Source: Pseudomonadota bacterium (GTDB taxonomy: Bacteria > Pseudomonadota > Alphaproteobacteria > Micropepsales > Micropepsaceae). From it: 64,000 nucleotides of DNA. The DNA lies in the NCBI GenBank assembly GCA_018241025.1, contig JAFEEQ010000009.1, positions 72,065 through 136,064 on the forward strand, read 5' to 3'. The notes under the pieces are model-generated. The model made no database searches, was not told where the DNA came from, and saw only the letters and a program-made list of their open reading frames with translations. Positions 12,842-60,554 of this stretch are shown in pieces (the stretch's first letter is position 1; every line of letters starts with the position of its first letter). The position numbers were made by a program, and so were the translations under genes.

Positions 12842-12983
12842 CGCTCGCCCCCCAAATCGCAGCCGACGCCAACAGAAGGGGCTGCGCCTCCAGGTATCGC
12901 GAAAATCCGGCCGGGTCCAGAAAACCTTGCTTTTCCCCCTTTTCGATGGCATCTCCTCGGCCTGCTAAGCCCCAAGAGGACGA

Positions 12984-13202
12984 ATGGCGAAGGAAGAACA
13001 ACTGGAATTCGAGGGCACGGTTGCCGAGCGCCTGCCGAACGCGACCTTCCTGGTCACGCTGCAGAACGGCCACCAGATCATCGCCCACACCGCCGGCAAG
13101 ATGCGCAAGAACCGCATCAGCGTGCTGACCGGCGACAAGGTCATGGTGGAGATGACGCCTTATGACCTCACCAAGGGGCGCATCACCTATCGCTTCAAAT
13201 AG
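12984..13202 (+). CDS. infA: Translation initiation factor IF-1
   Basis: A 72-residue OB-fold protein that matches IF-1 over its whole length: [19 protein letters not shown], then [39 protein letters not shown], and ITYRFK at the end. IF-1 binds the 30S A site during initiation. An AGAGGACGA purine-rich site precedes the ATG. The next gene, maf, starts inside infA, which couples the two. Confidence 0.98.
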
Positions 13203-13770
13203 CCGCCTCGTTCTCGCCAGCGAGAGCCCGCGCCGCAAGGCGCTGCTGGCCCAGGCGGGGATCGCGCCGGACGAGATCCGTCCTGCCAACATCGACGAAT
13301 CCATCCACAGGAACGAACAGCCCCGTCCCTACGCGCTGCGTCTGGCGTCGGCCAAGGCGGCTGTCGTTGCGGAAGGCGCCCCCGATGCGCTCATCCTCGC
13401 CGCCGATACCGTGGTCGCGCTCGGCCGCCGCGTCCTGCCCAAAGCCGACAGGGCCGAGATCGTCCAGGAATGTCTCGAACGCCTCTCCGGTCGCGCCCAC
13501 CGCGTCATGACCGCGATTGCCGTCGCAACGCCGGGCGGAAAAATCCGCACACGGATTGTCGAGACCCGGTTGATCTTCGATCGCCTCGACGACGCACGCA
13601 TCGCGGACTATGTGCGCTGCGGCGAAGGTCTCGGCAAAGCCGGCGGCTATGCGGTGCAGGGCAGGGCCGAAACATTCGTTCGCCACATCGCCGGATCTTA
13701 TTCCAATGTGGTCGGGCTGCCCTTACGCGAGACCATCTCTCTCCTTCGGGGATGCGGATATCCGTGCTAG
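13162..13770 (+). CDS. maf: Maf family nucleoside triphosphate pyrophosphatase
   Basis: A 202-residue Maf house-cleaning enzyme that hydrolyses non-canonical or methylated NTPs to NMP and PPi. [20 protein letters not shown] is the family N-terminal motif; [11 protein letters not shown] holds the catalytic Asp, and [15 protein letters not shown] is the second signature. The only usable start before that motif is the ATG at 13162. This overlaps the end of infA by 41 bp and adds about 14 residues before the fold. The infA-maf-rng-yacG order is conserved in Alphaproteobacteria. Confidence 0.92.
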
Positions 13771-13802
13771 CGTAAATTCGTCGCTATCGCCTGAGCACCC
13801 GA

Positions 13803-15320: not shown

Positions 15321-15498
15321 CGTCAGCGCCTGTCCGGTCTGCGGCCGCCCGCGCGATGTGAAGCTGCGTCCGTTTTGCTCGAAGCGCTGCGCGGATATCG
15401 ACCTCGCCAAGTGGCTGCGGGGCGAATACGCCATCCCGGGCGCCCCGCCGGGCGAAGAGGGGGCCCCGGACGACGGCGAACCCTCTGAATTCCATTGA
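15304..15498 (+). CDS. yacG: DNA gyrase inhibitor YacG (zinc protein)
   Basis: A 64-residue protein with the C-X2-C-X11-C-X3-C zinc knuckle (Cys10, Cys13, Cys25, Cys29) followed by CADIDLAKWLRGEYAIPG, the YacG signature. The acidic tail (PGEEGAPDDGEPSEF) is usual. In E. coli YacG binds GyrB and inhibits gyrase. The ATG at 15304 overlaps the end of rng, so the pair is translationally coupled. It ends 58 bp before tRNA-Phe. Confidence 0.92.
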   Translation: MSQPSSVSACPVCGRPRDVKLRPFCSKRCADIDLAKWLRGEYAIPGAPPGEEGAPDDGEPSEFH

Positions 15499-15556
15499 CA
15501 AATCCCCTCTGGACAGCGCCCCCGCCGTCGCCTAGAAAACCCGGCCCTTCGGGTAG

Positions 15557-15632
15557 GCCCGGGTAGCTCAGTTGGTAGAGCAGCGGATTGAAAATCCGCG
15601 TGTCGGCAGTTCAATTCTGTCCCCGGGCACCA
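15557..15632 (+). tRNA. tRNA-Phe (anticodon GAA)
   Basis: 76 bases with an encoded CCA. The acceptor GCCCGGG pairs with CCCGGGC, and the D-arm carries AGCTCAGTTGGTAGAGC. The anticodon stem GCGGA/TCCGC encloses TTGAAAA (anticodon GAA), and the T-loop is TTCAATT. A palindromic sequence (CCTTCGCTCGCGAAGCGAGG, about 15633-15653) follows directly and may end the transcript. Confidence 0.96.
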
Positions 15633-15782
15633 TCCTTCGCTCGCGAAGCGAGGGACGGATGTCGCGCCGTAGCCTCAAAGGGGCAAAGGCGGACCGGTTG
15701 CCGCGAGCCACGGCTCGACAGGCCGGTCGCTCAATCCCATCCGAACACGCTAGACTCAAAATCGCCCAAGGCCGGTCTCGCG

Positions 15783-16712
15783 ATGCGCATTCTCACTGTT
15801 ACGCTGAACCCCGCGATCGATGTCTCGGCTTCCGTCCCCGAGATCGTTCCGCAACACAAGCTGCGCTGCCACGATCTGCGCCGCGATCCGGGCGGCGGCG
15901 GGATCAATGTGGCCCGCGTTCTTCACGGCCTCGGCGCGGATGTGCACGCGCTGTTCGCTGCCGGCGGCCCATTGGGTGCGTTGCTGACGCGGCAAATGAC
16001 GGCCGAGGGTGTTGGCCACACCGCCGTCCCGATTTCCGGCGATACGCGTGAAGACTTCACCGTCACCAGCGCAGCCGACGGCTTGCAATACCGCTTCGTG
16101 CTGCCCGGACCGGTCCTTGCGTCGCAGGAATTCGAAACGGTGATCGCCGCTGTCGGCAGCAGCGGTGCGGAATTCGTCGTCGCCAGCGGCAGCCTCCCGC
16201 CCGGCGCGCCGCCCGACGCCTATCGCCGCCTGCGCGCCGCGTTGCCCGCAGACTGCTTCTTCGCCCTCGACACCTCGGGCGCTGCGCTCGCCGCGTCGCT
16301 CGGTCCGGGCGTGAGTCTGATCAAGCCGAGCCGGCGCGAACTGGCGGAATTGCTCGGTGAGCCGCTTCCCGACCGCGGCGCTTGCGTCGCGGCGGCGCGC
16401 CGTCTTGTGGCGGCAGGCGGCGCGGAGAGCGTCGCAGTCAGTCTCGGGGAAGACGGCGCGCTTTTTGTCGGACGCGACTTCGCTTGCGATGCGCGTGCGC
16501 CGCAAGTCGTGCCGAAGAGCACGGTTGGCGCCGGCGATAGCTTCCTTGCGGCGCTCGTCTTTGCCATCGCAAATCGGGCTGCGCCTGACGTCGCCCTGCG
16601 CCACGCAGTCGCCGCAGGCACGGCTGCTCTGTTGGCGCCAGGGACGGCGCTCGCGCATGCCGCGGATATTGCACGCTTGGAGTCGGGTGTGATCGTAGGA
16701 CCTGCAGACTGA
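15783..16712 (+). CDS. PfkB-family hexose-phosphate kinase (1-phosphofructokinase/Pfk-2 like)
   Basis: A 309-residue ribokinase-fold protein. It shows TVTLNPAIDVSASVPEI at the N-terminus, DPGGGGINVARVLHGLG for sugar-phosphate binding, the block SGSLPPG, and STVGAGDSFLAALVF with the catalytic Asp of the GAGD anion hole. The pattern is that of fructose-1-phosphate, tagatose-6-phosphate or 6-phosphofructokinase-2 enzymes; the exact substrate cannot be settled here. No PTS gene is adjacent, which argues for a Pfk-2-like role. ATG 15783 gives the family N-terminus. Confidence 0.85.
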   Translation: MRILTVTLNPAIDVSASVPEIVPQHKLRCHDLRRDPGGGGINVARVLHGLGADVHALFAAGGPLGALLTRQMTAEGVGHTAVPISGDTREDFTVTSAADGLQYRFVLPGPVLASQEFETVIAAVGSSGAEFVVASGSLPPGAPPDAYRRLRAALPADCFFALDTSGAALAASLGPGVSLIKPSRRELAELLGEPLPDRGACVAAARRLVAAGGAESVAVSLGEDGALFVGRDFACDARAPQVVPKSTVGAGDSFLAALVFAIANRAAPDVALRHAVAAGTAALLAPGTALAHAADIARLESGVIVGPAD

Positions 16713-16781
16713 CGCAGGATCGCTGCATCTTCGCCGCTGGATATGGCGGCCGGCGCAGGCGAAGCGCGCCGGCCGTATGGC

Positions 16782-19691: not shown

Positions 19692-19853
19692 TAATACCCA
19701 CCCACCCGAATTTTTTCGTGTTGTGCCCAATCTGGGGGTGGGACGTTAAACGCGAGTTAATGCGCAATTTTACGGAAACGATTCGCCAAGCAGAGTGAAC
19801 GCAGCGTTTACGTCTGATGCCTCGCGTCGACAGGCCGTTTACCGTGACAGGCT

Positions 19854-21950
19854 TCAGGACGCCGCGCGAAGGCCCGTCGTCTCGGCGTTTTCGACGATAC
19901 GCGCGGCAGGAAGGTGAACGCGCGCCGTCGTGCCGTGGCCGACCACGCTTTCGACGGTGAACGTGCCGCCATGCAGCTGCACCAGCGATTTCACGATCGG
20001 CAGGCCGAGACCGATTCCGCCATGGCTGCGCGCATAGGCGCTTTCGACCTGCCCGAATGCTTCCATGACTTCCGCGAGCTTGTCGCCCGGAATACCGATG
20101 CCGTTGTCCGCGACCACGATGGCAACGCCATCGCTGTCCCGCTTGAAGGAGACGCGGATTTCGCCATCCGCACCGGTGAACTTCACCGCATTCGACAGCA
20201 GGTTCTGAACCACCTGGCGCAGGCGGCGCTCGTCGCCGCGGATCTCGACAGCGCCGCCGTCATCCGCAATGGCGATCGTCTTGCCGTGGTTCGGCGCCTC
20301 GCCCTCGAGCGCCAGCGTGGCATTGTCGACGATGGCACGCAGCGACAGCACATCATCGTCGAGCGAGACGGTGCCCGCATCGAGCCGCGCCATGTCGAGA
20401 ATGTCGTTGAGTATTATGAGCAGCTTGCGCCCGCCGCTGTGGATGTCGGCGGCGTACTCGGTCGTCTTGGCGGCCGGCAGGACGCCCATCGCGATGATCT
20501 CGGAGAAGCCGATGATCGCGTTCAGCGGTGTGCGCAGCTCATGGCTCATATTGGCGAGGAAGTGGCTCTTGGCGACGTTCGCCTGCTCCGCGGCGCCCTT
20601 GGCAAGGCGCAATTCGGCCTCGACCTCGATGCGCCGCTCGATCTCGCCGTCGCGCTCGGCGAGCGTCTTGGCGAGTTCGTTGCGGTGACGATTGACGGTG
20701 TAGTGGCGCCAGCTGATCCACAAAATCAGAAGAATGCCCGCCAGCAGTACGCCAGCGAAGATCGCGGTCTGCGTCGTCTGCCGCGCCTCGCGCAGGCTCA
20801 TGTCGCGCTTGAGCTGCTCGGCCCGCAGATGCTCGATCTCGAGCTGCTGCGTGGCGAAGTCGAACTGCGCGCCCATGAGCGCGAGATTTGCGGACGCGGT
20901 GAGCGACCGGCCCTGGTCGTCGAGACGTTTGAAGGCCTCCAGATGCGCCAGCGCCAGGGGATAGTTTCCCTTGGCCCGATAGACCTTGTAGGCGATCTCG
21001 TGCATGTCGCGGAACGGCGAAATGGTCGTCTTCAGGTCGACGCCGCGAAACGCCTTGTCGAGATCGTTCGCCGCTGCATCCACGTTGCCGCGCGCGAATT
21101 CCGCCTCCGCCTTCACGCCCCACACGAAGGGCGCCCAGCCGTTCTCGTCCTTGGGTCCGAGCAGGGCCAGCGCGCGGTCGGCGGTCTTCAGCGCTTCGGC
21201 GGCGTGATGCCGTTTCGCCAGCACCGCCGCGATGTTGGTGAGGATGCGGGCTTCGAGGAACGGGCTGTCCATCTTGCTCGCGACATCGAGCGCATGGTTG
21301 AAGTCTTTCAAGGCCTCGTCGTAACGGCCGAGCTGGAGCAGGGCGAAGCCGACATTGTTGGCGTCCGACAGTTCGAAGGCGGGTTCGTCCGGATAAACCT
21401 GCGAGGCGCGGCGGTAGTATTCGATCTCGTGGTCGAAATCGTGCGCCTTGTCGTAGATGCTGCCGAGGCCCTGGAGCGCGAGCGACTGGAATCGCGGAAT
21501 GCCGAGATGCGCGAAGATGTCGTGCGCGCGGTGATAGCTCTTGAGCGCGAGCGCGAAATTGCTCGTCGCCTCTGCAAGACGCCCGAGCGAAAGCTGCAGG
21601 TCGCCGTCGAGTTTGGTGATCTTGCGATCGGAATCGGCCAGCGCAATCGCGCGCCCGATGACGCCCTTGGCATCGTCCGTCCGGTTGACCCGGGTCAGCG
21701 CTTCGCCTTCGAGCCACAGGCTCGTCGCCATCGCGTCGTTCTGCCGTGCCGAGTGTGGCTGCGCCGCGGCGAATGCTTCGGCCTTGCGCGCATATTCGAG
21801 TGCCGCAGGGGGATCGGCCATCATGGACTTCTTGGCGTCGGTTACGATGCCGTCGAATGCCGTCCAGTCATGCGCCGGCGCTGCTGCCAGGGCGCCAACG
21901 GCGCCGCCGATCAGACACAACGCGATCAGCGCGGCTGAGACCCGAACCAT
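19854..21950 (-). CDS. TPR-domain membrane sensor histidine kinase
   Basis: 698 residues. There is an N-terminal signal/anchor (VSAALIALCLIGGAVGALAA), then several TPR-like helical pairs to about residue 370 (for example LGRYDEALKDFNHALDVA). A membrane helix follows (TAIFAGVLLAGILLILWISW), then a coiled coil, HisKA (SHELRTPLNAIIGFS, phospho-His in the H-box) and HATPase_c (NAVKFTGADGE, ADNGIGIP, HGGIGLGLPIVKSL). The TPR part is predicted to be periplasmic. No response regulator is adjacent, so it is an orphan kinase. It reads out just before the repeat-bearing protease on the same strand. Confidence 0.88.
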   Translation of the reverse strand: MVRVSAALIALCLIGGAVGALAAAPAHDWTAFDGIVTDAKKSMMADPPAALEYARKAEAFAAAQPHSARQNDAMATSLWLEGEALTRVNRTDDAKGVIGRAIALADSDRKITKLDGDLQLSLGRLAEATSNFALALKSYHRAHDIFAHLGIPRFQSLALQGLGSIYDKAHDFDHEIEYYRRASQVYPDEPAFELSDANNVGFALLQLGRYDEALKDFNHALDVASKMDSPFLEARILTNIAAVLAKRHHAAEALKTADRALALLGPKDENGWAPFVWGVKAEAEFARGNVDAAANDLDKAFRGVDLKTTISPFRDMHEIAYKVYRAKGNYPLALAHLEAFKRLDDQGRSLTASANLALMGAQFDFATQQLEIEHLRAEQLKRDMSLREARQTTQTAIFAGVLLAGILLILWISWRHYTVNRHRNELAKTLAERDGEIERRIEVEAELRLAKGAAEQANVAKSHFLANMSHELRTPLNAIIGFSEIIAMGVLPAAKTTEYAADIHSGGRKLLIILNDILDMARLDAGTVSLDDDVLSLRAIVDNATLALEGEAPNHGKTIAIADDGGAVEIRGDERRLRQVVQNLLSNAVKFTGADGEIRVSFKRDSDGVAIVVADNGIGIPGDKLAEVMEAFGQVESAYARSHGGIGLGLPIVKSLVQLHGGTFTVESVVGHGTTARVHLPAARIVENAETTGLRAAS

Positions 21951-50081: not shown

Positions 50082-50660
50082 TCAATTCGCCGGCGCCGCC
50101 GCTTCGGTCAGCATGCGTTCCAGCCATGCATTCATCCGCGCGTCGATGACGACGTGAATGCGATCCGTCGCGCCGAGATTGGCGACGCGATGGGGATCGC
50201 TCAGCCGCAGATACCAGAGGCTGCCCGGTTCGAGGGTGACGGGCCGGCGATTGACCTCGAACTGCACCCCGTCGTTGGTCGTGATCGGCAGGTGCAGCCG
50301 CACCGTTCCCTGCTCGGCATCGAGGTCGTGATCGTGGTGCTCCTTGATTTCGGAACCGGGCGTCAGGCGCATGAGGCGCACGGCAAGCAGCGGACATTCG
50401 ACGCGTGCCAACGCCGCGCGAATGTTGGGGCATCGTGCCAGCAGCGGCATGTCCTCGAACTCGGTCGCCGAGGGATCGGAATAGATCGCGCGGATCGGGT
50501 GGGTCGCGCCGGCCGGGCCGCGAAGGGGCAGGGCGCTCCAGTCGCCGCTGTAGTTCTGGCGGACAAAGTGCGCAATCCAGCCATCGAGCCCCGCGAGATC
50601 GCGCACAAGCAGTGCGGGGTCGAAGGACAAGGGAAGGCGCAACCGGTCTGGAAATGCCAT
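50082..50660 (-). CDS. Aspartyl/asparaginyl beta-hydroxylase domain protein
   Basis: 192 residues with an Fe(II)/2-oxoglutarate jelly-roll: SEIKEHHDHDLDAEQGTVRLH carries the HxD iron motif, LHLPITTNDGVQFEVN forms the core, and LWYLRLSDPHRVANLGATDR carries the distal His and the 2-oxoglutarate Arg. Relatives hydroxylate Asp or Asn side chains in proteins. The start at 50660 lies 55 bp from the divergent sulfotransferase gene, so a shared promoter is likely. It is a candidate tailoring enzyme of the neighbouring cluster. Confidence 0.8.
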   Translation of the reverse strand: MAFPDRLRLPLSFDPALLVRDLAGLDGWIAHFVRQNYSGDWSALPLRGPAGATHPIRAIYSDPSATEFEDMPLLARCPNIRAALARVECPLLAVRLMRLTPGSEIKEHHDHDLDAEQGTVRLHLPITTNDGVQFEVNRRPVTLEPGSLWYLRLSDPHRVANLGATDRIHVVIDARMNAWLERMLTEAAAPAN

Positions 50661-50715
50661 GTCGAAACAGTATTCTGGCGCCGGTGTCCCATCAAGAACA
50701 CGGCACGGGCGGCGC

Positions 50716-51888
50716 ATGAGCGATTCCGGACTTGTACGCCTTCGTGCCGCCATTCTGGCGAGCGAACGGCATCAGGCGATGCTCGCTGCATACGAGGATC
50801 GTTATGAATTCGCCCGGCACGCATTGTCCCTGGCCGTCGCGCTGGATATTCCGGTCGAAGCAAGCGAACTCGCTGGGGCTGTCCAGCCTGATCCCGTCGG
50901 CATCGGGCGTTGGGCCGATGTGGCCCTGACCGAAGCCGTGCCGCAGCGCGGCTGGCTGCCGGTCGGTCTCGTCCCCGGTACCACCAGCCTGCAAGTCGAC
51001 TGGGTGCATTTTGGCGACCAACCGCTCCGCGAACCGTTTTTTGAGGATTCCGTCCGCATTGCCATGCGCCGACCGATCAATCTCTTCGCAAGGCACCGCA
51101 CGACGCTCGCAGGACTGCGATCAGCAGTGCTGGCGAACGCATCGGCACCGCCGGCCGGGTTCGTCTTTCACATGTCGCGCTGCGGTTCTACGCTGGCAGC
51201 CCAGATGTTTGCCTCGGACCCGCAGACGATCGCTGTTTCCGAGGCTCAGCCGCTCGACCAGGTCTTACAGTTGGCAGCGCGAAATCCCGCGGCTGCCCCC
51301 ATGCTCGTGCGCGACATGGTGGCGGCGCTCTGCCAGATTCGCGATGACCGCAGCACACGTGCCGTGATCAAGCTCGACAGCTGGCACACGCTCGCCCTTC
51401 CGTTGTTCCGGCAGGTCTTTCCCGAGGTTCCCTGGGTCTTTCTTTATCGCGAGCCGGTCGAAGTGCTGGCATCCCAGCTCTATCAGCGTGGCATCCAGAC
51501 CGTGCCGGAATACCTCTCGCCCGAGCTTTTCGGCCTGTCGAGGGACGATGCCCTCGAACCCGAAGATTATTGCGCCCGGGTCCTTGGCCGGACCTGCGAA
51601 GCGGCGCTGCAATTTCCCGAAGGCGGCCTCGTGGTGAATTACCGCGAATTGCCGGACGCCGTGTTCAGCCGGATCGCACCGCATTTCGGCATTGACGTTA
51701 CGCAGGAGATGCGTGCCGCCATGACTGATGTCGCTGCACAAGACGCCAAGCGGCCCAGCATCCCGTTCGACCCGCAACAGCCGGAGAAGCGAAAGCTGAT
51801 GACTGCCGAGCTGCGCGCCATCGCAACGCGCCGTCTCGCCCCGGTCTATCGCGAGCTTGAAGCGCGCAATACGGCCTCTGCGATATGA
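50716..51888 (+). CDS. Sulfotransferase family protein (PAPS-type), first copy
   Basis: 390 residues. After an N-terminal region of about 145 residues of unclear family, AGFVFHMSRCGSTLAAQMF forms the 5'-phosphosulfate loop, VIKLDSWHTLALPLFRQVFP follows, and WVFLYREPVEVLASQLYQ is the 3'-phosphate motif. The acceptor is unknown. The ATG at 50716 starts a coupled operon: its stop overlaps the kinase start by 4 bp. Members with the MSRCGSTL loop often sit beside an Asp-hydroxylase, as here. Confidence 0.8.
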   Translation: MSDSGLVRLRAAILASERHQAMLAAYEDRYEFARHALSLAVALDIPVEASELAGAVQPDPVGIGRWADVALTEAVPQRGWLPVGLVPGTTSLQVDWVHFGDQPLREPFFEDSVRIAMRRPINLFARHRTTLAGLRSAVLANASAPPAGFVFHMSRCGSTLAAQMFASDPQTIAVSEAQPLDQVLQLAARNPAAAPMLVRDMVAALCQIRDDRSTRAVIKLDSWHTLALPLFRQVFPEVPWVFLYREPVEVLASQLYQRGIQTVPEYLSPELFGLSRDDALEPEDYCARVLGRTCEAALQFPEGGLVVNYRELPDAVFSRIAPHFGIDVTQEMRAAMTDVAAQDAKRPSIPFDPQQPEKRKLMTAELRAIATRRLAPVYRELEARNTASAI

Positions 51889-52802
51889 AGTCTGTGCACG
51901 CATATCGTATGACCGGCCTTCGGATCAGCAGCGACATCGTTCTGCCGTCAGCGATTGCGGATGCCGCGTCATCGACCGCGCCGGACGTCGTCATCCGTGA
52001 GGCTGTGATCGATCCCGAACCGCCACAGCTCGCGACGTTTCGCCTTGATGCCCGCGATTTTCGCTACGAACTCCCCGGCATCGCGCGGTTCCGGATCTTG
52101 GACGCAAGGGAGCTGCAGTATCAGCCGCTGGACGGAACGCCCGCTGGCGATATTGCCGCGCTGATCGCAACCACGCTCATGGGTATCCTGCTTCACCTGC
52201 GAGGCTCGGTCGTGCTGTCCGCCAGCGCGGTGAAAGTCGGACAGCATGCGGCTCTGCTGTGCGGGCCGGCCGCAGCGGGAAAATCGACCATGGCCGCGGC
52301 GTTGTCGCAGCGGGGCTATCCCGTACTTGCCGATGGTCTCAGTGTCATCTTGGTTTCCAGCGGAAGCGCGTCGATCGCTGGTTCCGATGGCTGCCGCTTA
52401 TCTCTCTGGACGAGATCCATCGAGCGGCTGGGTCTCGCCGACCGGCGTGGCGATCCGGTTCGGCCGGGGTTGCAGAAATTTCTGGTATCGCCGTCATCAT
52501 TTATCGACGAGCGATTGCCTATCGGGAGTGTTCACGTTCTGCGAGAAACGCGCGCTCCGGAGGGCGACGGCATCAGGCGTGTGAACATTGTCGACGGCGC
52601 GCTGCTGATACGGGGCTGCGCGTCCAAACCCCAGCTCGTCAAGTTGCTGCGTCAGGAGAAGACCTATCTCGCCGCCGCTGCCGCGGTGATGGCATCCGCG
52701 CCGATTGGCATTCACGATCGTCCGTTCGATTTCGACGCACTGCCCGGGGCGCTCGACAGGACAGAGGCCGATTGGCGCGCGGCCGGGTTGATCGCAGCAT
52801 GA
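51885..52802 (+). CDS. HPr kinase-like (HprK-related) protein
   Basis: 305 residues. The Walker A loop ALLCGPAAAGKSTMAAALSQ lies in the middle of the chain, after a beta-rich N-terminal domain. The usual HprK LADD acidic pair reads VLADGLSVI, so one Asp is Gly. Related HprK-like kinases occur in lasso-peptide and similar peptide-modification clusters rather than in sugar regulation; no PTS or HPr gene is in the window. It overlaps both flanking sulfotransferase genes by 4 bp, so the three are translated as a unit. Confidence 0.78.
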   Translation: MKSVHAYRMTGLRISSDIVLPSAIADAASSTAPDVVIREAVIDPEPPQLATFRLDARDFRYELPGIARFRILDARELQYQPLDGTPAGDIAALIATTLMGILLHLRGSVVLSASAVKVGQHAALLCGPAAAGKSTMAAALSQRGYPVLADGLSVILVSSGSASIAGSDGCRLSLWTRSIERLGLADRRGDPVRPGLQKFLVSPSSFIDERLPIGSVHVLRETRAPEGDGIRRVNIVDGALLIRGCASKPQLVKLLRQEKTYLAAAAAVMASAPIGIHDRPFDFDALPGALDRTEADWRAAGLIAA

Positions 52803-53680
52803 CCAAGACGTGCTGGCTGGCCTCCTATCCCAAGTCGGGCAACACCTGGATGCGCATCATGATCGGCTGCCTCGCGCTTCCGGAGGGCGCGCCGGTCGAC
52901 ATCAACGCGCTCGAGGGGCAGGGCGGTATCACCAGCGCAAGGGGGATGTTCGACGGCTTCTTCCTGACTGATTCCTCCTTGCTCAGCCATGACGAGATCG
53001 ACCGCTTGCGGCCGCGGCTCTATGAGGCGATGGCCAGCGATCTGACCGAGGATGAGGACGCCGGCCGCTTGCCCGTTCGATTCGTCAAGGCGCATGACGC
53101 CTACACGAACAACGCCGATGGCATACCCCTTCTGGCCGGCGCACGCGGCGCCGCCGGTGCGATCGTCATCGTTCGCGACCCCCGGGATATCGTGGCGTCG
53201 CTGGCGTCCCACCTGGACTGCTCCTTGGATGAAGCCATCGGCTTCATGAACAGTCCGGCGGCCGCATTTTGCGGCGGGTTGAACCAGGTGCAGCCGCAAC
53301 TGCGGCAGAAACTTTTGCGTTGGCATGAACATGCCGAAAGCTGGCTTGAACAGCGCGATATCCCGATTCATCTCGTGCGCTATGAGGAACTCAAGCGTGC
53401 GCCCGTGGAAGTCTTCGTCCGGGCGATGCGGTTTGCCGGCGTCGAAGTATCCGCGGAAGCGGCAAGATCCGTGGTGGCCCGCACCTCATTCGCATCGTTG
53501 CAGGACCAGGAGCAGGCTCGCGGCTTCGCCGAGCGTTTGCGCGGAAAGGAGGGGCGGAACTTTTTCCGGCGGGGCGAGGCCGGAGCCTGGAGGCGCGAAT
53601 TGTCAGTCGATCAGATCGCCGAGGTCGAGCGCGCGCATGGCGTGATGATGTCCCGTCTCGGCTATTTGCCGCTTCGTTAG
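52799..53680 (+). CDS. Sulfotransferase (Sulfotransfer_1 type), second copy
   Basis: 293 residues. WLASYPKSGNTWMRIMIG is the canonical 5'-PSB loop at the N-terminus, VIVRDPRDIVASLASHLDCS the 3'-PB motif, and GKEGRNFFRRGEAGAW the C-terminal PAPS-binding loop (RKGxxGDW-like). It is a cytosolic enzyme; its acceptor, whether peptide, lipid or glycan, is unknown. It belongs to a different subfamily from the first copy, so it is not a tandem duplicate. Its end overlaps the convergent Asn-synthetase gene by 4 bp. Confidence 0.87.
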   Translation: MTKTCWLASYPKSGNTWMRIMIGCLALPEGAPVDINALEGQGGITSARGMFDGFFLTDSSLLSHDEIDRLRPRLYEAMASDLTEDEDAGRLPVRFVKAHDAYTNNADGIPLLAGARGAAGAIVIVRDPRDIVASLASHLDCSLDEAIGFMNSPAAAFCGGLNQVQPQLRQKLLRWHEHAESWLEQRDIPIHLVRYEELKRAPVEVFVRAMRFAGVEVSAEAARSVVARTSFASLQDQEQARGFAERLRGKEGRNFFRRGEAGAWRRELSVDQIAEVERAHGVMMSRLGYLPLR

Positions 53681-55605
53681 GGGGCATCGTCTGGCGGCGG
53701 GCGGTTGTCCCGACGGAACCATTCGACGTATCGGGCAAAGTTGTAGGCATGCAGGGCAGTCATGTGCGGCACGGCTTCCGGCCCACGCCGGAAGGCACTT
53801 CTGCGAAAGACCGCCAATGCCCGCATGCGCGCGAAATCGAAGACTTTGGCTACGTCCTGCGAACTCCGCTCCATGCGCCCGATTTCCCGCAACAGGTCCG
53901 GCCGTATCCGGTCAAATGCAGCCGAAAAATCCGGGATAAGTACATCGTTCGAGCTCGAGCGCTGCTGGTAGGCTTCGGGAAGGAGATCGCGCAACGCCGT
54001 TCGCGCCAGATATCTATCGACACCGTTTTTCACGTGAAGTTCGTCCGGAATGGCGAGTGCAAACTCGACGACGCGTTTGTCGTGGTACGGCCGCGTGAGC
54101 TCGAGGCCGAGAGACGACGCGTGAATCGTTCCGCCGGGCGCGTGAAATCCCTGCTGTCGCGCCAGAACCTCCGTGAGCATGTCGGTCAGCCGCCGGCTGC
54201 GCACCGGAGCACTGAAGTCGAGGGCGCCGAATTGGCCGGCAATGCGGCCAGTCATCTCGGACGACAGCGGCGCCGTTGTCCCATTGATTGGCAGGCCCAT
54301 CTGGAAGCGGAGCCATGCGCGCAAAACACCCGACGGCAGGAACGGCATGACGACTTCCCGGCGCAGCACTGCGGCCCAGGACAGCCGATTGTGTCGCCGA
54401 TAGGCGGCAAGCTCCCTCAGGAACAGGCGCAATCTGCCCTCGCGAAGGCGTCGCGCTGGCCAACCCCGGCCGCGCGGATTGACTGTGTAGTCTCCGCCGA
54501 AGCCATCCATCAGTTGCCGGGCGCCAGCCGCCGCGGCGGCCGCGTACAATTCGGTGTTGGTGTAGATGTTGGGACTGCTCGGCTGTCCTGTCCGCCGGAA
54601 ATTGCTCTCGAATGCGGCGAGGATGTCGACCTTCTCGCGCGTGATCCAATGCACATCGAGCTGCGGCCAGCGGTCGGCCAGCAGGGAAACCCATCGCCGC
54701 ACCCCCGTGGGTGGGTCGGATGGGGGCAGCACCGATGCGACGCCGACCACCTTGCTGCCGGGCAACGCCGAGCAGGTCAGGCTTGCGATCGCCCCGCTGT
54801 CGAAGCCGCCGCCCAGACAAACAGCCGGCGGGTTTGTACTTCGCCGGACACGGCAGGCAACTGCCTCGCCGAGGATCGCACGGTATGTCCTGACATAATA
54901 TTCGGCGTCCCGGTTCAGGTGACTGGGGGCAGCCGAGGGCGTCCAGTAACGTCTATGCTTTGTCGCGCCGTCCGTCGAAACAAGCATGCTGGATCCACCG
55001 GCCAGGGCTTCAATGCCAGCAAACGTGGTGGACCGATCTCTGGCGGTGCGCTCGCGCGATAGATCGTATCCAAGCGCGACGACGTCCAATTCGCGCGGCA
55101 CATCCGTGACAGTCCAAAGGCCGCGCACATCGCTTGCGAACGCGATGAAATCGGACGACCTGTGAAAATAGAACGGCCGCTGCCCCATGTGGTCGCGGGC
55201 CGCGAAGAGTTCACGTCGGGCCTCGTCCCAGACTACGAAGGCGAAGTCACCGATCAGGTGTTCGGGCGCGTTTGCTCCCCAGTGCCGATACGCTTCCGCG
55301 ATCAGCGCGCTGTCCGGCAATTTCTGGAGCGTGGAAGTGTCCAGGCCGAACGCGGCCGCGAGTTCATTGCGATTATCGATCCGAACGTCAGCGGAAATCG
55401 TGAGACTGCCGCTTGTGTGCGGCTGGTCGTCGAGAAAATCTTCTCGCGTGAGGCGGCGAAGCCGGTGACCGATACCCGTTTGGCCGACTATTCGTATTGC
55501 CGCTCGGTCGCCTCCGGCATGGGCGAGGGCGTTCGACTGACGTTCAAGATCGGCCAATCGCGGATGCAGGCCGTCAAAGCGGAAGATGCCAAAAACGGCG
55601 CTCAC
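53677..55605 (-). CDS. Asparagine-synthetase-like protein without glutaminase Cys
   Basis: 642 residues. The N-terminal Ntn-type glutaminase domain is present (GIGHRLRRL, HLIGDFAFVVWDEARRELFAARDHMGQRPFYFH), but the chain starts M-S-A-V-F instead of M-C-G, so the catalytic Cys2 is missing. The synthetase domain has VCLGGGFDSGAIASL as its ATP loop, with SGG changed to LGG. It may act as an amide or macrolactam former with free amines or a peptide, as lasso cyclases do. GTG at 55605 is the start that keeps the family N-terminus. It is convergent with the sulfotransferase gene. Confidence 0.82.
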   Translation of the reverse strand: MSAVFGIFRFDGLHPRLADLERQSNALAHAGGDRAAIRIVGQTGIGHRLRRLTREDFLDDQPHTSGSLTISADVRIDNRNELAAAFGLDTSTLQKLPDSALIAEAYRHWGANAPEHLIGDFAFVVWDEARRELFAARDHMGQRPFYFHRSSDFIAFASDVRGLWTVTDVPRELDVVALGYDLSRERTARDRSTTFAGIEALAGGSSMLVSTDGATKHRRYWTPSAAPSHLNRDAEYYVRTYRAILGEAVACRVRRSTNPPAVCLGGGFDSGAIASLTCSALPGSKVVGVASVLPPSDPPTGVRRWVSLLADRWPQLDVHWITREKVDILAAFESNFRRTGQPSSPNIYTNTELYAAAAAAGARQLMDGFGGDYTVNPRGRGWPARRLREGRLRLFLRELAAYRRHNRLSWAAVLRREVVMPFLPSGVLRAWLRFQMGLPINGTTAPLSSEMTGRIAGQFGALDFSAPVRSRRLTDMLTEVLARQQGFHAPGGTIHASSLGLELTRPYHDKRVVEFALAIPDELHVKNGVDRYLARTALRDLLPEAYQQRSSSNDVLIPDFSAAFDRIRPDLLREIGRMERSSQDVAKVFDFARMRALAVFRRSAFRRGPEAVPHMTALHAYNFARYVEWFRRDNRPPPDDAP

Positions 55606-55655
55606 ACAAAGTCCAAGGTCCTGGCAGTATCAATTGACATCGTCGCAAGCGGAGA

Positions 55656-55677
55656 TTTTTCAATCTATATTGAAAAA
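55656..55677. promoter_or_regulatory. Palindrome upstream of the Asn-synthetase gene
   Basis: TTTTTCAAT-CTAT-ATTGAAAAA is a perfect 9-bp inverted repeat placed about 50 bp upstream of the GTG at 55605. Position and symmetry suit an operator; the T and A ends also resemble a weak bidirectional terminator, though the stem is AT-rich. Confidence 0.4.
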
Positions 55678-56012
55678 GCAGGGTGCAAACGGTTCAGCTG
55701 CCTGCCGTGCTGCTATTCACGCCACGCGATTCGAAAGTGTATGAGGGATTGATTCCCTTCGTCTGCTCTCGCACTTCGCTCACCACGATCTGGGGTGCAA
55801 TCCACTTCCGACGGCACAAACTGCCGGTATTTGGTTCGCTGAGTTCAGCACTCTGTACAGGTCGCACCAATTTCATCCCCAACACTACCCTGGTGCCAGA
55901 CTACTCTTAAAACCAGCTCTTTGCCAGTATCAGTTGTCTTTCCAAGCAAATCATTATCGCCGGTATACAGAATAGTCACAATACCTTCCTGCAAGGGGGC
56001 GCACTTTGCGGG

Positions 56013-56174
56013 ATGGAAAACTGTCGACGGTGCAAATTACGCAGAGGTCTGGGTCTGACTCCTGAAAGCATATCCTTCCTGCCTCTCCTTTCCGTTCAGA
56101 TTTCGCCTTTTGCAATTGCAGGCCTCAAGTATGTGTGGTCTCCATTACGCTCGAGACAAATATTTGTTATCTGA
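56013..56174 (+). other. Short orphan ORF (53 codons), doubtful
   Basis: ATG at 56013, with AAGGGGG about 13 bases upstream, a Cys-containing basic start (MENCRRCKLRRGLGLTPE) and a hydrophobic second half. It is the longest small ORF with any RBS found in the AT-rich gap and lies inside the modification cluster, so it is listed as a possible precursor peptide. It shows no lasso-leader or other known precursor signature, and its spacing is poor. It is most likely not a gene. Confidence 0.12.
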
Positions 56175-56354
56175 ATGATCTTCAAATATGAAAATCGGAA
56201 TATATTTTGAATTAGCATACGCAAAAATGTTTTGAAGTTAATTTTGATATTGAGGTAGTGCAATTATACATGTTAGTACTCACAGGAATAGTCGAAGTGT
56301 TAATAGAATAATCGATCACACGGGCATTGGGCCCTCAATCGAGGAGCAGGAAAC

Positions 56355-56879
56355 GTGAACTTCTTTCTTGGCCAGATCGGCATGTTTGGGTTCAATTTCC
56401 CTCCCAGAGGGTGGGCGCTATGCAGCGGCACAATCCTCCCGATTGCGCAGAACACGGCTCTATTTTCGCTGCTCGGAACGACTTATGGCGGTAACGGGCA
56501 GTCGACATTTGGTCTGCCTGATCTGCGCAGCCGCACCCCGATGGGTTTCGGCAATTTGACCAGCCTCGGCGAAATGGCCGGTGTGGAAAACGTGTCTCTC
56601 CTCATCACGGAGATTCCCCTTCACACCCACCACATGAATGCAACCAGCCAGAACGGCGATGAGCTTAAGGAAGCCGCCAACAGCATATTTGCAGCCGGCG
56701 ATACGGGACCGCTGCCGGGCACGCCTCAGCCGACCTACAACAACGGTCCGGCGAGCACGATGCTGAATGCAGGTACGGTCGGCATCTACGGTCAGAGCCA
56801 GCCCCACAACAACATCCAGCCAAGTCTTGCGATCAACTACTGTATCGCTACGACCGGCTATTTCCCCGCTCGCAACTGA
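56355..56879 (+). CDS. Phage-tail-collar (MdpB-like) protein, copy 1
   Basis: 174 residues. FLGQIGMFGFNFPPRGWALC and TALFSLLGTTYGGNGQSTFG are the Phage Tail Collar domain start, then FGLPDLRSRTPMGFG. It ends YCIATTGYFPARN, with PHNN before the end. Such proteins occur in short-tail-fibre trimers and in free-standing microcystin-dependent-type (MdpB) proteins. No signal peptide is present. The start is a GTG behind CGAGGAGCAGG. Compared with copies 2 and 3, its middle region differs most. Confidence 0.85.
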   Translation: MNFFLGQIGMFGFNFPPRGWALCSGTILPIAQNTALFSLLGTTYGGNGQSTFGLPDLRSRTPMGFGNLTSLGEMAGVENVSLLITEIPLHTHHMNATSQNGDELKEAANSIFAAGDTGPLPGTPQPTYNNGPASTMLNAGTVGIYGQSQPHNNIQPSLAINYCIATTGYFPARN

Positions 56880-56905
56880 CCGAAACCAGCCAGGAGGATT
56901 GAACG

Positions 56906-57445
56906 ATGAGCCAGCCTTACCTCGGTGAAATTCGGTTGTTCGGCGGAAATTTCGCGCCGCGGACGAATGCGATGTGCGCCGGTCAGCTGTTGCCGGTCGC
57001 CCAGAATACGGCGCTCTTTTCGCTGCTCGGAACGTATTATGGCGGTAATGGCACCACGAATTTTGGTCTTCCGGACCTTCGTGGCCGGTTGCCAGTTGGC
57101 ATGGGGCAGGGTCCGGGTCTGTCCAACTACGATATCGGAGAGCAGATCGGGTCCGAGACGGTTACGATCACGACTCAGACCATGCCGGCACATACCCATT
57201 TCGTGTCCGCCTCAACGCAGCCGGCAACTGTGGCGTCGCCCGTTGGCGCCTATCCTTCGGCGCTCGCCGACCCGCCATGGGTGAGGTACTGGGTGCCGGA
57301 TGCCAACAAGACCGGCAATCCGCTTCCGATGTCCCCGAACGCCCTCAGCATGATTGGCGGAAACCAGGCGCACAACAACCTGATGCCGATACTGGCCGTG
57401 ACGGCGATCATCGCCCTTCAGGGCGTATTTCCGTCTCGCAACTAA
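56906..57445 (+). CDS. Phage-tail-collar (MdpB-like) protein, copy 2
   Basis: 179 residues, same architecture: YLGEIRLFGGNFAPRTNAMC, NTALFSLLGTYYGGNGTTNF, LPDLRGRLPVGMGQGPGLSN, HTHFVSAS-type His pair, and the C-terminal block IALQGVFPSRN. Its GMGQGPGLSNYDIGEQIGSE block is close to copy 3, so these two are nearest relatives. An AGGAGG site precedes the ATG by about 7 bases. It is 26 bp after copy 1, so they form one operon. Confidence 0.87.
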   Translation: MSQPYLGEIRLFGGNFAPRTNAMCAGQLLPVAQNTALFSLLGTYYGGNGTTNFGLPDLRGRLPVGMGQGPGLSNYDIGEQIGSETVTITTQTMPAHTHFVSASTQPATVASPVGAYPSALADPPWVRYWVPDANKTGNPLPMSPNALSMIGGNQAHNNLMPILAVTAIIALQGVFPSRN

Positions 57446-57474
57446 GGCGCCCACGAGCCCTACAGGAGGAACCT

Positions 57475-57999
57475 GTGTCAGAACCCTATATCGGTCAGAT
57501 TTGTTTGTTCGGTTTCAATTTTGCACCGCGGAGCTACGCGTTCTGCGCCGGCCAGCTGATCCCAATTTCGCAAAACGAAGCTCTGTTTTCGATCCTCGGC
57601 ACGACCTATGGCGGCAACGGCCAATCGAATTTCGCGTTGCCCAATTTTCAGGACCGCGGTGTCGTGAATATGGGGCAGGGGCCCGGTCTGTCAAACTATG
57701 ATCTCGGCGAAGCTATCGGGTCGGACACGGTCACGCTGAATTCCAACCAGATTCCAATGCACAACCACACCGTCAACGCCTTTGCCGGCTCGACGCAGGC
57801 CTTGGCACCGAGCGCAAACGCCTGGTTTGGAAGCAACTCTCCTCCGGGCCGCATTTATTCCGATCAGCCGGCAACGGGCACCATGGCGCTCAATGTCGTA
57901 AGCGGCTCCGGCGGGTCGCAGCCGCATATGAATGAGCAACCCTATCTCGGCATGAATTTCTGCATCGCGCTCTACGGCATCTACCCGTCCCGTAACTGA
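57475..57999 (+). CDS. Phage-tail-collar (MdpB-like) protein, copy 3
   Basis: 174 residues: YIGQICLFGFNFAPRSYAFC, EALFSILGTTYGGNGQSNFA, the QGPGLSNYDLGEAIGSDTVT block, HNHTVNAFA, and the end CIALYGIYPSRN. The start is a GTG at 57475 with AGGAGGA six bases upstream; this RBS decides the start, since the open frame extends far upstream inside copy 2. It ends 14 bp before the acetyltransferase gene. Confidence 0.86.
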   Translation: MSEPYIGQICLFGFNFAPRSYAFCAGQLIPISQNEALFSILGTTYGGNGQSNFALPNFQDRGVVNMGQGPGLSNYDLGEAIGSDTVTLNSNQIPMHNHTVNAFAGSTQALAPSANAWFGSNSPPGRIYSDQPATGTMALNVVSGSGGSQPHMNEQPYLGMNFCIALYGIYPSRN

Positions 58000-58013
58000 G
58001 TTGACGCAGCGCA

Positions 58014-58505
58014 ATGGTTGACCTGGGCCAGTCGGATCTCTCCCTGCGATCCGACTGTTCCGGCGACAAGCAATTCCTGCGGATGCTTTTTGCGACGGCG
58101 CGTCTGGACGCGCCGTTGTTGGCGCAATGGCCGGTCGCGCAGCGAGACGCATTCCTCGATCAACAATTTGCGTTTCAGGACATCCACTATCGCCGGTATT
58201 ACGACGGCGCGGATTTCCTCATAATTGAACAATGCGGCGAACCGGTCGGCCGGCTCGTCCTTGATCGATCGACGCCCGACTGGTGTCTTGTCGATATCGC
58301 GCTGTTGCCGGAGGCGCGCGGCAAGGAAATTGGGCGCAAACTCCTCGAAGGCATTGTGGCTTCCGCCAAGGCGGGCCGGGTCCGTGCGATTTCCCTCAGC
58401 GTCGAACCTGGGAATCCGGCCTACAGGCTTTACAGCCGCGCCGGCTTCGTCGAAACCGAAAGCGAGAGTGAGGCCAGCATCGCAATGATCCTGCGCCTCA
58501 GTTGA
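58014..58505 (+). CDS. GNAT family N-acetyltransferase
   Basis: 163 residues. VDIALLPEARGKEIGRKLLE is motif A with the acetyl-CoA loop (Q/RxxGxG/A form: ARGKEIG), followed by ISLSVEPGNPAYRLYSRAGFVE, motif B. The N-terminal half is not recognised. It starts 14 bp after collar copy 3 and so is probably in the same transcript, which makes a collar protein or a cluster product a possible acceptor. Its last 8 bases overlap the opposing DUF6916 gene. Confidence 0.85.
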   Translation: MVDLGQSDLSLRSDCSGDKQFLRMLFATARLDAPLLAQWPVAQRDAFLDQQFAFQDIHYRRYYDGADFLIIEQCGEPVGRLVLDRSTPDWCLVDIALLPEARGKEIGRKLLEGIVASAKAGRVRAISLSVEPGNPAYRLYSRAGFVETESESEASIAMILRLS

Positions 58506-58791
58506 AGACTGCCTCGTAGAGGATGCCATCGCGGTCGCGCGCGACCGGTACGATGAAGATGTTCATCGTATCGGTGCCCTTGGCTTTCAGTGGATACATT
58601 TTTTGCGGAAGAACGACATGCGACTGGCTTTTGAAGGTCAGCGTAAACGGCTCGGCCCGCAAACCGCTCACGACCCGGGGTGGCCGCCGCCGGGCTTCGA
58701 CCAGTGTGATGTCGACCGAAGATTCGCCCAACGACAGTGCGAAAGTCTCGCGCAAATGTCCGGCAAAGAATTCATAAGACATCGACTGCAT
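58498..58791 (-). CDS. DUF6916 family protein
   Basis: 97 residues, matching DUF6916: YEFFAGHLRETFALSLG at the start, VDITLVEARRRPPRV, PFTLTFKS and the end IFIVPVARDRDGILYEAVFN. The domain is known mainly as a companion of collar-protein clusters; its function is unknown. GAGGA lies before the ATG at 58791; an ATG at 58782 is the alternative. It is convergent with the GNAT gene. Confidence 0.75.
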   Translation of the reverse strand: MQSMSYEFFAGHLRETFALSLGESSVDITLVEARRRPPRVVSGLRAEPFTLTFKSQSHVVLPQKMYPLKAKGTDTMNIFIVPVARDRDGILYEAVFN

Positions 58792-58896
58792 TCGTTCCTC
58801 GGAGTCATGTAATGCACCATTTTTCGCTTCTTGCCGGCGACTTGTAAAGTTTGCTCGGGTCAGGTAACCGCGAATTTCTTGGTGACGGAGCAGCCA

Positions 58897-59205
58897 GTGA
58901 CTCAGGAATCCGACCCACCTGCGATCCATGCAGGGACAACCCTTCATCGCCGGGGGGAATGGTTGACCGCGCGGGTGGGCGACGAGATGGTGATGATGGA
59001 CGCGGACTCCGGCAGCCACATCGGCCTGACCGAGACCGGCGCCCGAATCTGGGATCTGATCGAAGCGCCTATGACGTTCGGCGCGATCTGCTCCGCTTTG
59101 GCGGAAGAGTACGATGCACCCGCAGGGGCGATCGCGGCCGACATCGTCGGCTTTCTGCAGCAGCTTGCGGCACGCGGGGCGATCAGTCTCGAGCCGCCTG
59201 CCTAA
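58897..59205 (+). CDS. PqqD-like (RRE fold) protein
   Basis: 102 residues. VGDEMVMMDADSGSHIGLTETGARIWDLIEAPM is the PqqD-type winged-helix core (written here only as a span), with an ICSALAEEYDAP helix and a final VGFLQQLAARGAISL helix. PqqD/RRE proteins bind leader peptides and hand them to modifying enzymes. GTG at 58897 is chosen because GGAG lies 8 bases upstream. No precursor is adjacent. It overlaps the FadL-family gene by 4 bp at the 3' ends. Confidence 0.82.
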   Translation: MTQESDPPAIHAGTTLHRRGEWLTARVGDEMVMMDADSGSHIGLTETGARIWDLIEAPMTFGAICSALAEEYDAPAGAIAADIVGFLQQLAARGAISLEPPA

Positions 59206-60554
59206 TTCGCGTGCCAGCTTAATTCGATTCCCGCGACATTGACGTAGGCATTGGTCGTGCCGCTCAGGCTGCCGCGCAGCGCCGCGCCGGTTATCGCGGG
59301 CGTAAGGGCGATATTGCTCTCGAGAAAGAACAGCCTCGATGCCGTGACATTGAGGTCGATGCTGCGGCTCATGCGATACCGTACGCCGGCCGACAGCCAG
59401 ATCCGGTCGGAGTCGGGGATTCGCGGCTCGCGCGTCCCATCCGGAACCGGGCTGCCGTCATAGGCAGCGCCGGCGCGGATCGCCCAGCGGGCCGACGGGC
59501 GGTACTCCGCCCCAACCGATCCGAACCAGCCGTCGTGCCAATGAGTGGTCGTCAGGTCGGTGGGCTGCGCCGGATTGTCGGCAGTCACCACGATGTCGCG
59601 AAAACGGCTCCAATGGGTCCAGTCGACCTCGAGCATCGCGCTCCACTGTGACGACAGGTCGAAACGCGCGCCGGAGGTCACGGTATCCGGCATCGTCACG
59701 CGGGTGGTGTGCTTCGTGTCCGTGAACAGCCCGGTGAGGCTCTGGATTGTCGCGCCGATGCCGGCGCTGTCGAGCGTAAAGGTCAGCGGTCCTCTCAGAT
59801 TGTGCTGCAGCGACGAGCGATAGGCGAGTCCAAGCGACACGCCGTCTGCCGGCCGATAGATCGCTCCGGCCCCGAAACCATAGGCCCAGTTGTTGCCGTT
59901 CGCTCGGGCGATGCTGTCTTGCGCACCCGGAACCGAGCCTGGAATGCTGTTGAGCGCGCCGAGTGTGCCGGTATCGATCACGCTGCTGAGCGTGCCTTGC
60001 GCGAATTCGATCTGCATCGATGCCCCGAGCGCCAGGTTCGGCGATATCTGGTAGGAGATCGACGGCGCAAAATTGATGGTCAGCAGTTTGGTCTGAAGAG
60101 CGTAGTAACGGCCGCCCCAGCTTGCCGGATATTCCGTGCGCAGACCCCAAGGTGCCGTGACGTTGAGACCGACGGCGACCCGGTTGTTGAGGCGGTGGCG
60201 GATAGCGAAAGCGGGCACCTGCGCGTCGCTGATGAACCCGCGCGGATCCATGCCGCCGCCGGTTGCTGTGCTGGCCGACGTCGTTGCGGCGCTGTAATGC
60301 GCGTTCGAGCCAGACAGGATAGGCACAAGGCTTAGGGAAAGATCGGTGCTGTCGACCCCGGCCAGCGCGGCGGGATTGTAAGCGAGATAGCTGGCATCCC
60401 GATCCGTGGCCGCGGCGCCGGCATAGGCTGCCGCCATCGCGTCGGCGCTATGTTCCTTAAGGCCGAAGCCAGCCCCCATCGCCGGGCCTGACGCAAGCAC
60501 CGCTGTTCCCAGCAACAGTGCCGCTCCGCTTGCCCCCGCTATACGCCCACGCAT
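59202..60554 (-). CDS. OmpP1/FadL family outer-membrane channel
   Basis: 450 residues. A signal peptide (ALLLGTAVLASGPAMG) precedes GFGLKEHSADAMAAAYAGAA, where the FadL hatch/N-terminal segment normally starts, and then DASYLAYNPAALAG. The rest is a beta-barrel that includes APWGLRTEYPASWGGRYYAL, TPAITGAALRGSLSG and a terminal strand GIELSWHAN. FadL proteins let hydrophobic molecules through the outer membrane. It is convergent with the PqqD-like gene, so a link to the cluster is only positional. Confidence 0.88.
   Translation of the reverse strand: MRGRIAGASGAALLLGTAVLASGPAMGAGFGLKEHSADAMAAAYAGAAATDRDASYLAYNPAALAGVDSTDLSLSLVPILSGSNAHYSAATTSASTATGGGMDPRGFISDAQVPAFAIRHRLNNRVAVGLNVTAPWGLRTEYPASWGGRYYALQTKLLTINFAPSISYQISPNLALGASMQIEFAQGTLSSVIDTGTLGALNSIPGSVPGAQDSIARANGNNWAYGFGAGAIYRPADGVSLGLAYRSSLQHNLRGPLTFTLDSAGIGATIQSLTGLFTDTKHTTRVTMPDTVTSGARFDLSSQWSAMLEVDWTHWSRFRDIVVTADNPAQPTDLTTTHWHDGWFGSVGAEYRPSARWAIRAGAAYDGSPVPDGTREPRIPDSDRIWLSAGVRYRMSRSIDLNVTASRLFFLESNIALTPAITGAALRGSLSGTTNAYVNVAGIELSWHAN

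Follow-up and report, generated by a model that had tools for sequence, protein, structure and literature searches.

The 64,000-nucleotide stretch of DNA analyzed here (the window; contig JAFEEQ010000009.1 of assembly GCA_018241025.1, from a bacterium of the alphaproteobacterial family Micropepsaceae) carries a predicted lasso peptide cluster built around a module of three tandem collar proteins (PF07484). We propose that this collar trio forms a trimeric head, similar to the tip of a phage fiber, that carries or binds the lasso peptide, a proposal whose chances we regard as evenly balanced. An earlier note, made from the letters of the window, had described the region as a possible peptide-modification cluster built on collar proteins. 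Each gene that it listed within about 10 kb was found either with Pfam and NCBIfam profiles, against which the window's proteins were scored, or by family comparison (Table 1), and its views that the genes form a peptide-modification cluster and that the grouping with collars is no accident were borne out. Below, loci are numbered with L, genomes with G and contigs with C.

The precursor had escaped the earlier note. When the HprK-like protein was searched against the order, matches were obtained in 22 of 96 genomes and 18 neighborhoods were fetched; the window's proteins were mapped onto these, and six frames were read in nine gaps, mostly next to cyclase genes. A similar short peptide is encoded in eight of these first nine gaps, that of the window included, and all eight combine a W-x-x-P leader motif with a final Ser. 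Lasso precursors are characterized by such a leader, a Thr at position -2 and an acidic ring residue near position 7-9. The window's peptide (MKLVRPVQSAELSEPNTGSLCRRKWIAPQIVVSEVREQTKGINPSYTFESRGVNSSTAGS), encoded just upstream of the cyclase gene, has the W-x-x-P leader, the Thr at -2 with T-K before Gly1, the acidic residue Glu9 and a C-terminal Ser. Because a precursor of a ribosomally synthesized and post-translationally modified peptide (RiPP) with lasso features is present, we predict that the window holds a lasso cluster; the ring from Gly1 to Glu9 and the cut site are our own predicted assignments. A leave-one-out hidden Markov model of 19 precursors recovered 14 of them, including the window's, at E ≤ 0.05 among 14,915 frames. 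The terminal Ser makes the peptide a fitting substrate for a lasso kinase, as HprK-like lasso kinases are known to act on a Ser at the C-terminus in the portions available of two papers (PMC8498205, PMC9266682).

Of the 24 lasso-linked collar loci, 21 have a Ser-ending precursor, some of these precursors being weak (L117, E 0.16; L095, E 0.64) or recognized by the motif alone (L097, L103, L124, L135). Since the final Ser was built into the later motif scans, only the first eight precursors are independent of that criterion. Two trios of one genome (L099 and L102) adjoin a lasso-type precursor (L099 8508-8741, L102 8609-8965) with no lasso enzyme within 8 kb of the trio, and enzymes would have to act on these orphan precursors in trans. 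More than one lasso-type precursor candidate per locus, some of them weak, was also seen in three loci with no collars (L042, L044, L049).

Two of the enzymes that would process this peptide recur together. Sulfotransferase B is encoded beside the HprK-like gene in 15 of the 18 neighborhoods, and both occur with such precursors and no collars in L037, L040, L042, L043, L044 and L046. Sulfotransferase B keeps the loops YPKSGNTW and RDPRDIVAS, which we take to be motifs of the type that binds the sulfate donor PAPS (3'-phosphoadenosine-5'-phosphosulfate). The two different sulfotransferases of the earlier note thus stand on unequal ground: B is clear, while A falls just short of its cut-off and is weaker than claimed. 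Relatives of A were found in L035, L038, L039, L041, L094, L115 and L136. The HprK-like protein has no Pfam match, and was placed by an alignment of 35 rows (37 HprK-like proteins were found, and two longer than 420 aa were left out). The catalytic His is kept in 30 of the 35 rows, including the paralogues in the window's own genome (L040, L090), which also keep both Asp residues; in the window's copy, Ser replaces this His and Gly replaces the second Asp. This copy therefore lacks the His-Lys-Asp-Asp motif that is required for lasso kinase activity according to the portion available of PMC9266682. With two of four catalytic residues lost, phosphorylation by this copy is doubtful, and as the loops of sulfotransferase B are kept, sulfation would be the likelier local mark. 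The frame of the HprK-like gene is otherwise open and the P-loop Lys is kept, as in a possible pseudokinase.

The only B2 protease of the genome (PF13471, 93.6 bits, C8:3121-3456) lies next to another HprK-like gene and a cyclase (L090). Because the genome (G000) has four HprK-like matches (C2, C8, C34) and a single B2, this one protease would serve several lasso loci. Sister loci have a B2 in the cluster itself (for example, L038, L041, L094, L117 and L135), and those of L038, L094, L117 and L135 pass the NCBI lasso B2 cut-off (66-80 bits vs 33).

The window's three collars are the only PF07484 matches in the 4.12-Mb genome, and lasso parts flank them on both sides, the PqqD-like gene lying beyond the collars. 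A collar trio with a GNAT and a DUF6916 protein, as present in the window, is a unit that we found across phyla with two types of partner, either lasso genes or a giant protein. For 76 of 84 collars (28 loci, among which close relatives inflate the count), the nearest relative in another locus occupies the same place in its trio, and the mean identity of collars within a locus is 40%; collar positions 1, 2 and 3 are separate lineages, as a heterotrimer would need. A His-x-His motif is found in all 84 collar proteins and is invariant in the 27 aligned. In the tip of T4 gp12, such His residues bind metal on the trimer axis. Collar protein 2 matches phage fiber tips both by sequence (8kec, E 7e-8; 1ocy, E 3e-4) and by its structural model.

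The pairing of collars with lasso genes was followed over increasingly distant genomes. Within the order, 15 of the 96 genomes hold 16 collar trios (single or broken collars in G005, G014, G015, G031, G044:C6 and G045:C5 and C28 were not counted), and 10 of the 16 adjoin lasso genes. Among 289 genomes of the class, a B2 and a collar are both present in 13, and the two lie within 10 kb in five of these, compared with 0.108 expected under random placement (P = 3e-8, an estimate with rounded genome sizes that ignores contig breaks). Fifteen stretches were fetched from the class, leaving out, among others, G229 and three trios each of G255 and G352 (genus of G127), and seven genomes outside the genus, from six families, show the pairing (L094-L098, L103, L104). 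Four of 20 stretches from the phylum are lasso-linked (L135, L136, L140, L153); they bring the families of the class to seven (with G457) and include two genomes from other classes (G545, G420). These 20 were chosen by eye among the matches listed, six of them for a B2 match (G545, G582, G614, G422, G632, G457). A scan with the kinase yielded the pairing in two of 10 loci, in metagenome-assembled genomes (MAGs) of Sphingomonadales and Opitutales. Collars were looked for in ten of 60 plasmid records, that of Azospirillum oryzae being chosen because of a nearby HprK match; its locus is annotated with 'lasso peptide biosynthesis B2 protein', 'asparagine synthetase B family protein', three copies of 'tail fiber protein' and a GNAT. 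Overall, seven more families of the class show the pairing, as do two genomes from other classes of the phylum and one MAG of Verrucomicrobiota. It should be noted that these sample choices raise the proportion of lasso-linked loci but do not raise the number of loci that have both partners. We conclude that the lasso-collar pairing is real and old. The earlier note had offered scattered homologues without co-occurrence as the sign that would tell against its reading; collar and lasso genes were found together in several families, and the reading survives this check.

Which partner accompanies a trio follows a pattern. We tabulated 61 loci fetched for their collars (L106, L107 and L137 with two collars only), calling a locus lasso-linked when at least two lasso genes were found by tblastn within 8 kb, and calling a protein giant when an open frame of at least 850 aa with Arg ≤ 5% and N+D+T+V+I+L ≥ 35% lay within 8 kb, a rule set after viewing the data. 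None of the 22 lasso-linked loci has a giant Arg-poor frame, compared with 29 of the 39 others, 10 of which have neither partner (Fisher P = 3e-9); 27 giants remain with a stricter floor of 1500 aa (Fisher P = 5e-8). As a trio mostly stands beside lasso genes or a giant, and never beside both in the 61 loci, the collars likely serve the adjoining partner. In the window, the 8 kb before the trio and the 18 kb after it hold no giant Arg-poor frame of at least 850 aa, and the nearest frame under the rule, 12 kb upstream, is a TonB-type receptor. Six further or borderline giant frames were checked by Pfam. The giants include a cadherin/Ig protein with RTX repeats (L088), autotransporters with Ig-like domains (L126, L129), an Ig-like protein (L141) and a DUF7948 protein with beta-propeller repeats (L143), while plasmid trios, usually with a GNAT and DUF6916, adjoin proteins annotated 'choice-of-anchor D', 'Ig-like', 'putative Ig', 'YDG' and 'cellulose binding domain' or a very long 'hypothetical protein'. 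The giant partner is probably surface-exposed.

In a tree built from the concatenated collars of 52 loci (L099 and L102 counted as lasso, L140 skipped and two-collar loci unused), the partner label changes seven times, compared with 17.7 times in shuffles, and starred branches force at least two changes. The partner type is therefore inherited with the collars and was switched more than once. The window's collars belong to a starred clade of four lasso loci inside a mostly giant-linked part of the tree, where not all forks are starred. The loci with neither partner are L085, L099, L100, L102, L105, L107, L108, L128, L147 and L151, among which L108, L147 and L151 are short contigs and L099 and L102 have the lasso-type precursors described above. 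The collars of L085 seem, by eye, to carry signal peptides, and the trio of L100 lies beside a large frame (12707-19900) that by eye resembles a polyketide synthase and may represent a third type of partner.

Based on these findings, we suggest the following course of events. The PqqD-like protein would recognize the W-x-x-P leader, the B2 encoded elsewhere in the genome would cut the precursor after T-K, and the Asn synthetase-type cyclase would link Gly1 to Glu9. The HprK/sulfotransferase pair would then modify the Ser-ended tail, with sulfation likelier from this locus, and the trio would form a head that carries or binds the lasso peptide, as it would the giant protein elsewhere. That the lasso enzymes yield a peptide whose Ser-ended tail is modified appears well supported by homology, while the carrying or binding of this peptide by a collar head is drawn from the genome context. 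The genes, the precursor family, the co-location and, in the loci examined, the mutual exclusion of the two partners are observed directly; we predict the lasso topology, the modification sites, the trimer, its export and the binding.

Alternative explanations differ in how they account for the proximity of the two modules. Lasso clusters and collar modules might independently share a variable-region hot spot with no common function, which we hold to be possible though rather unlikely. Lasso modules without collars are indeed common, in the genus as HprK-sulfotransferase modules (L036, L037, L040, L042, L043, L044, L046, L047), collar modules without lasso genes are also common, and the window, L038, L039 and L041 have common chromosomal neighbors, so that the site is reused. 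Against a shared location of this kind speak the interleaving, with the PqqD-like gene lying beyond the collars, a pairing that spans families and two phyla and excludes giants in the loci examined, lasso precursors beside trios without enzymes (L099, L102), and the clustering of partner type on the collar tree. That the collars are a prophage remnant next to a lasso cluster we consider very unlikely: PF07484 takes its name from phage tails, phage fibers are the nearest solved structures and the giant-linked L133 lists an integrase, yet searches of 10 window proteins and the annotation of nine plasmid loci revealed no capsid, packaging or other phage structural gene, and the trio keeps its GNAT and DUF6916 across phyla.

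Two further alternatives assign the collars a different relation to the peptide. The earlier note had suggested that the cluster modifies the collar proteins themselves, by hydroxylation, sulfation or amide formation, which as a whole appears improbable to us. Close relatives of the Asp/Asn hydroxylase occur in 10 of the 96 genomes of the order, and nine of these hold a collar trio, compared with 15 of 96 overall (hypergeometric P = 4e-8; the exception is G031). Five of the nine are lasso-linked and four giant-linked, with the gene on a contig other than the trio's in three of the latter. The hydroxylase tracks the collars, not one partner type, and both it and the GNAT could act on a protein of the collar module; this part of the suggestion stands, and the hydroxylase may modify such a protein. 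For the lasso enzymes the suggestion fares worse, and the collars are probably not their substrate: a separate precursor exists, the HprK-like protein, sulfotransferase B, PqqD and the cyclase occur elsewhere with precursors but no collars, and trios occur with giants where lasso enzymes are lacking. The collars could also act as the producer's immunity factor or as a receptor for the lasso peptide. These roles are held elsewhere by TonB receptors or isopeptidases. A fixed pairing, a collar tree that follows partner type and the receptor-binding folds of phage collar tips would all agree with such a function; however, the trio also pairs with giants, which need no immunity, and we think this role quite unlikely.

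Several observations weigh against the proposal of a collar head that carries or binds a lasso peptide. No B2 protease is found in the window's cluster, as the earlier note had stated, the cyclase and PqqD-like protein score below the curated cut-offs both in the window and in its sister locus L094, and the window's kinase copy looks degenerate. At E 0.05, five of the 19 precursors fail in the leave-one-out search (four score worse and L044 is not found), the candidate of L083 ends in Ala, the precursor search gave none in L080 and L089, and no homologue of the window's precursor was found among 5.8 billion proteins. On the collar side, the model is poor (pLDDT 69), so that the trimer prediction rests on relatives; no signal peptide is apparent by eye, with no program run, and the surface location of the collars is therefore assumed. 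Contact between peptide and collars is predicted from genome context. The wider samples also hold less favorable counts: collars are missing from eight of the 10 loci that the kinase scan returned, and among 20 genomes of the phylum with both families, at least three (G106, G137, G545) have a B2 no more than 10 kb from one of the collars listed, two of these genomes being in the class sample already, which makes this a weaker replicate. Of the phylum stretches, three of the six chosen for a B2 match are lasso-linked, compared with one of the 14 others. Finally, the loose giant rule admits other proteins, such as the subtilase of L142 (28 of the 29 giants may therefore stand) and, near the window's trio, a subtilase 37 kb away in addition to the receptor at 12 kb, and lasso genes occupy room near a trio, which alone lowers the odds of a giant within 8 kb.

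Several known systems resemble parts of this cluster. The aromatic residue of a lasso leader is usually Tyr. Kinase-type lasso clusters (paeninodin, ThcoK and the proteobacterial SyanK) have, in the portions available of two papers, the same Ser-ended precursor, B1, B2, cyclase and HprK-like kinase (PMC8498205, PMC9266682). The window differs from these in its leader aromatic, which is Trp, in a B2 that lies outside the cluster and a kinase copy without the catalytic His, and in the addition of a sulfotransferase beside the kinase, the collar trio, a GNAT, DUF6916 and a hydroxylase. Some Firmicutes lasso clusters are described as containing a sulfotransferase gene, and a hydroxylase or GNAT within the cluster is known from those of canucin (CanE, of 2-oxoglutarate type) and albusnodin (AlbT), again in the portion available (PMC8498205). 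Unlike in canucin and albusnodin, the window's hydroxylase and GNAT also occur with giant-linked trios, and the lasso peptide is therefore not their obvious substrate. Collar protein 2 resembles the tip of the T4 gp12 short tail fiber and the fiber of cyanophage A-1(L) by sequence and model; in contrast to these, the collars stand alone at about 175 aa, form tandem trios of three lineages and accompany a GNAT and DUF6916, with no phage genes. The giant-linked bacterial trios (annotated 'tail fiber protein') share the same trio, GNAT and DUF6916, but have a giant Arg-poor protein as partner (L088, L126, L129, L141) where the window has lasso genes. They are presumably the proteins of COG4675, 'microcystin-dependent protein'.

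We know of no natural role for many lasso peptides, and the annotation of bacterial collar trios as tail fibers assigns them no function. A pairing that spans two phyla and excludes giants in the loci examined links the question of what lasso peptides do to that of what collars carry, since it names candidate binding partners for the peptide and a short list of possible collar cargoes. Sulfated lasso peptides are a likely product class, and looking beside a trio offers a simple way to find lasso precursors that have no adjoining enzymes. Tentatively, and with less confidence than in the proposal of a collar head as such, we speculate that a heterotrimeric phage-tip head is loaded by partner swap with either a giant adhesin or a sulfated lasso peptide, the RiPP being the business end; if true, the RiPP would serve a surface or secreted protein machine instead of acting as a free antibiotic. 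No paper on the lasso-collar pairing was found in the open-access literature searched.

The genes of the region are listed in Table 1. The first three operon genes overlap by 4 bp (51885-51888 and 52799-52802), as the earlier note had observed, and a convergent overlap lies at 53677-53680. FadL, a histidine kinase and a PilZ methyltransferase are grouped in four of five stretches from relatives without the cassette, and therefore represent the chromosomal flank. The cassette of L041 adjoins all three flank genes, that of L039 two and that of L038 FadL.

Table 1. Genes of the lasso-collar region, in window coordinates, with the evidence for each.
Feature	Coordinates	Strand	Evidence and remarks
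Asp/Asn beta-hydroxylase-like	50082..50660	-	PF05118 (Asp_Arg_Hydrox) 49.6 bits; start MAFPDRL picked via L082 relative
Sulfotransferase-like A	50716..51888	+	Sulfotransfer_3 26.7 bits, just under cut-off 27
HprK-like lasso kinase relative	51885..52802	+	TIGR04352 29 bits vs cut-off 200; family alignment
Sulfotransferase B (Sulfotransfer_1)	52799..53680	+	PF00685 82 bits; partner of HprK-like gene
Asn synthetase-type lasso cyclase (C protein)	53677..55605	-	NF033535 E 4e-92, 310 bits vs curated cut-off 525
Lasso precursor A (predicted), 60 aa	55694..55876	-	six-frame reading; leave-one-out model E 7.6e-4; predicted core GINPSYTFESRGVNSSTAGS
Collar protein 1	56355..56879	+	PF07484 94.9 bits
Collar protein 2	56906..57445	+	PF07484 85.8 bits; resembles T4 gp12 receptor-binding tip
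Collar protein 3	57475..57999	+	PF07484 84.2 bits; GTG start
GNAT acetyltransferase	58014..58505	+	PF00583 42.6 bits; RimI model 31.9 bits, under its cut-off
DUF6916 protein	58498..58782	-	PF21880 73.6 bits; relatives in collar loci with both partner types
PqqD-like leader-binding protein (lasso B1)	58897..59205	+	NF033536 48.5 bits vs curated cut-off 80; GTG start
FadL	59202-60554		last gene of the region first described; conserved chromosomal neighbor

Other genes recur in related loci. A family of about 245 aa is found near lasso genes (L041 13056-13805, which has no Pfam match, L038 7965-8696, L104 15842 and L135 5586), with weaker members in L043 and L113. The lasso-collar loci L096 (16896-18377), L097 (15342-16759) and L098 (from 16695) carry a 2OG-Fe(II) oxygenase of another kind and a weak sulfotransferase-like gene, as if this pair substituted for the window's hydroxylase and sulfotransferase A. 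A nucleotidyltransferase (NTP_transf_5, 146.8 bits) is encoded at L083 15169-16395 and recurs in L080, L081, L089 and L094, all of them lasso-collar loci; such a gene is also present in some phosphoglycosylated lasso clusters, according to the portion available of PMC8498205.

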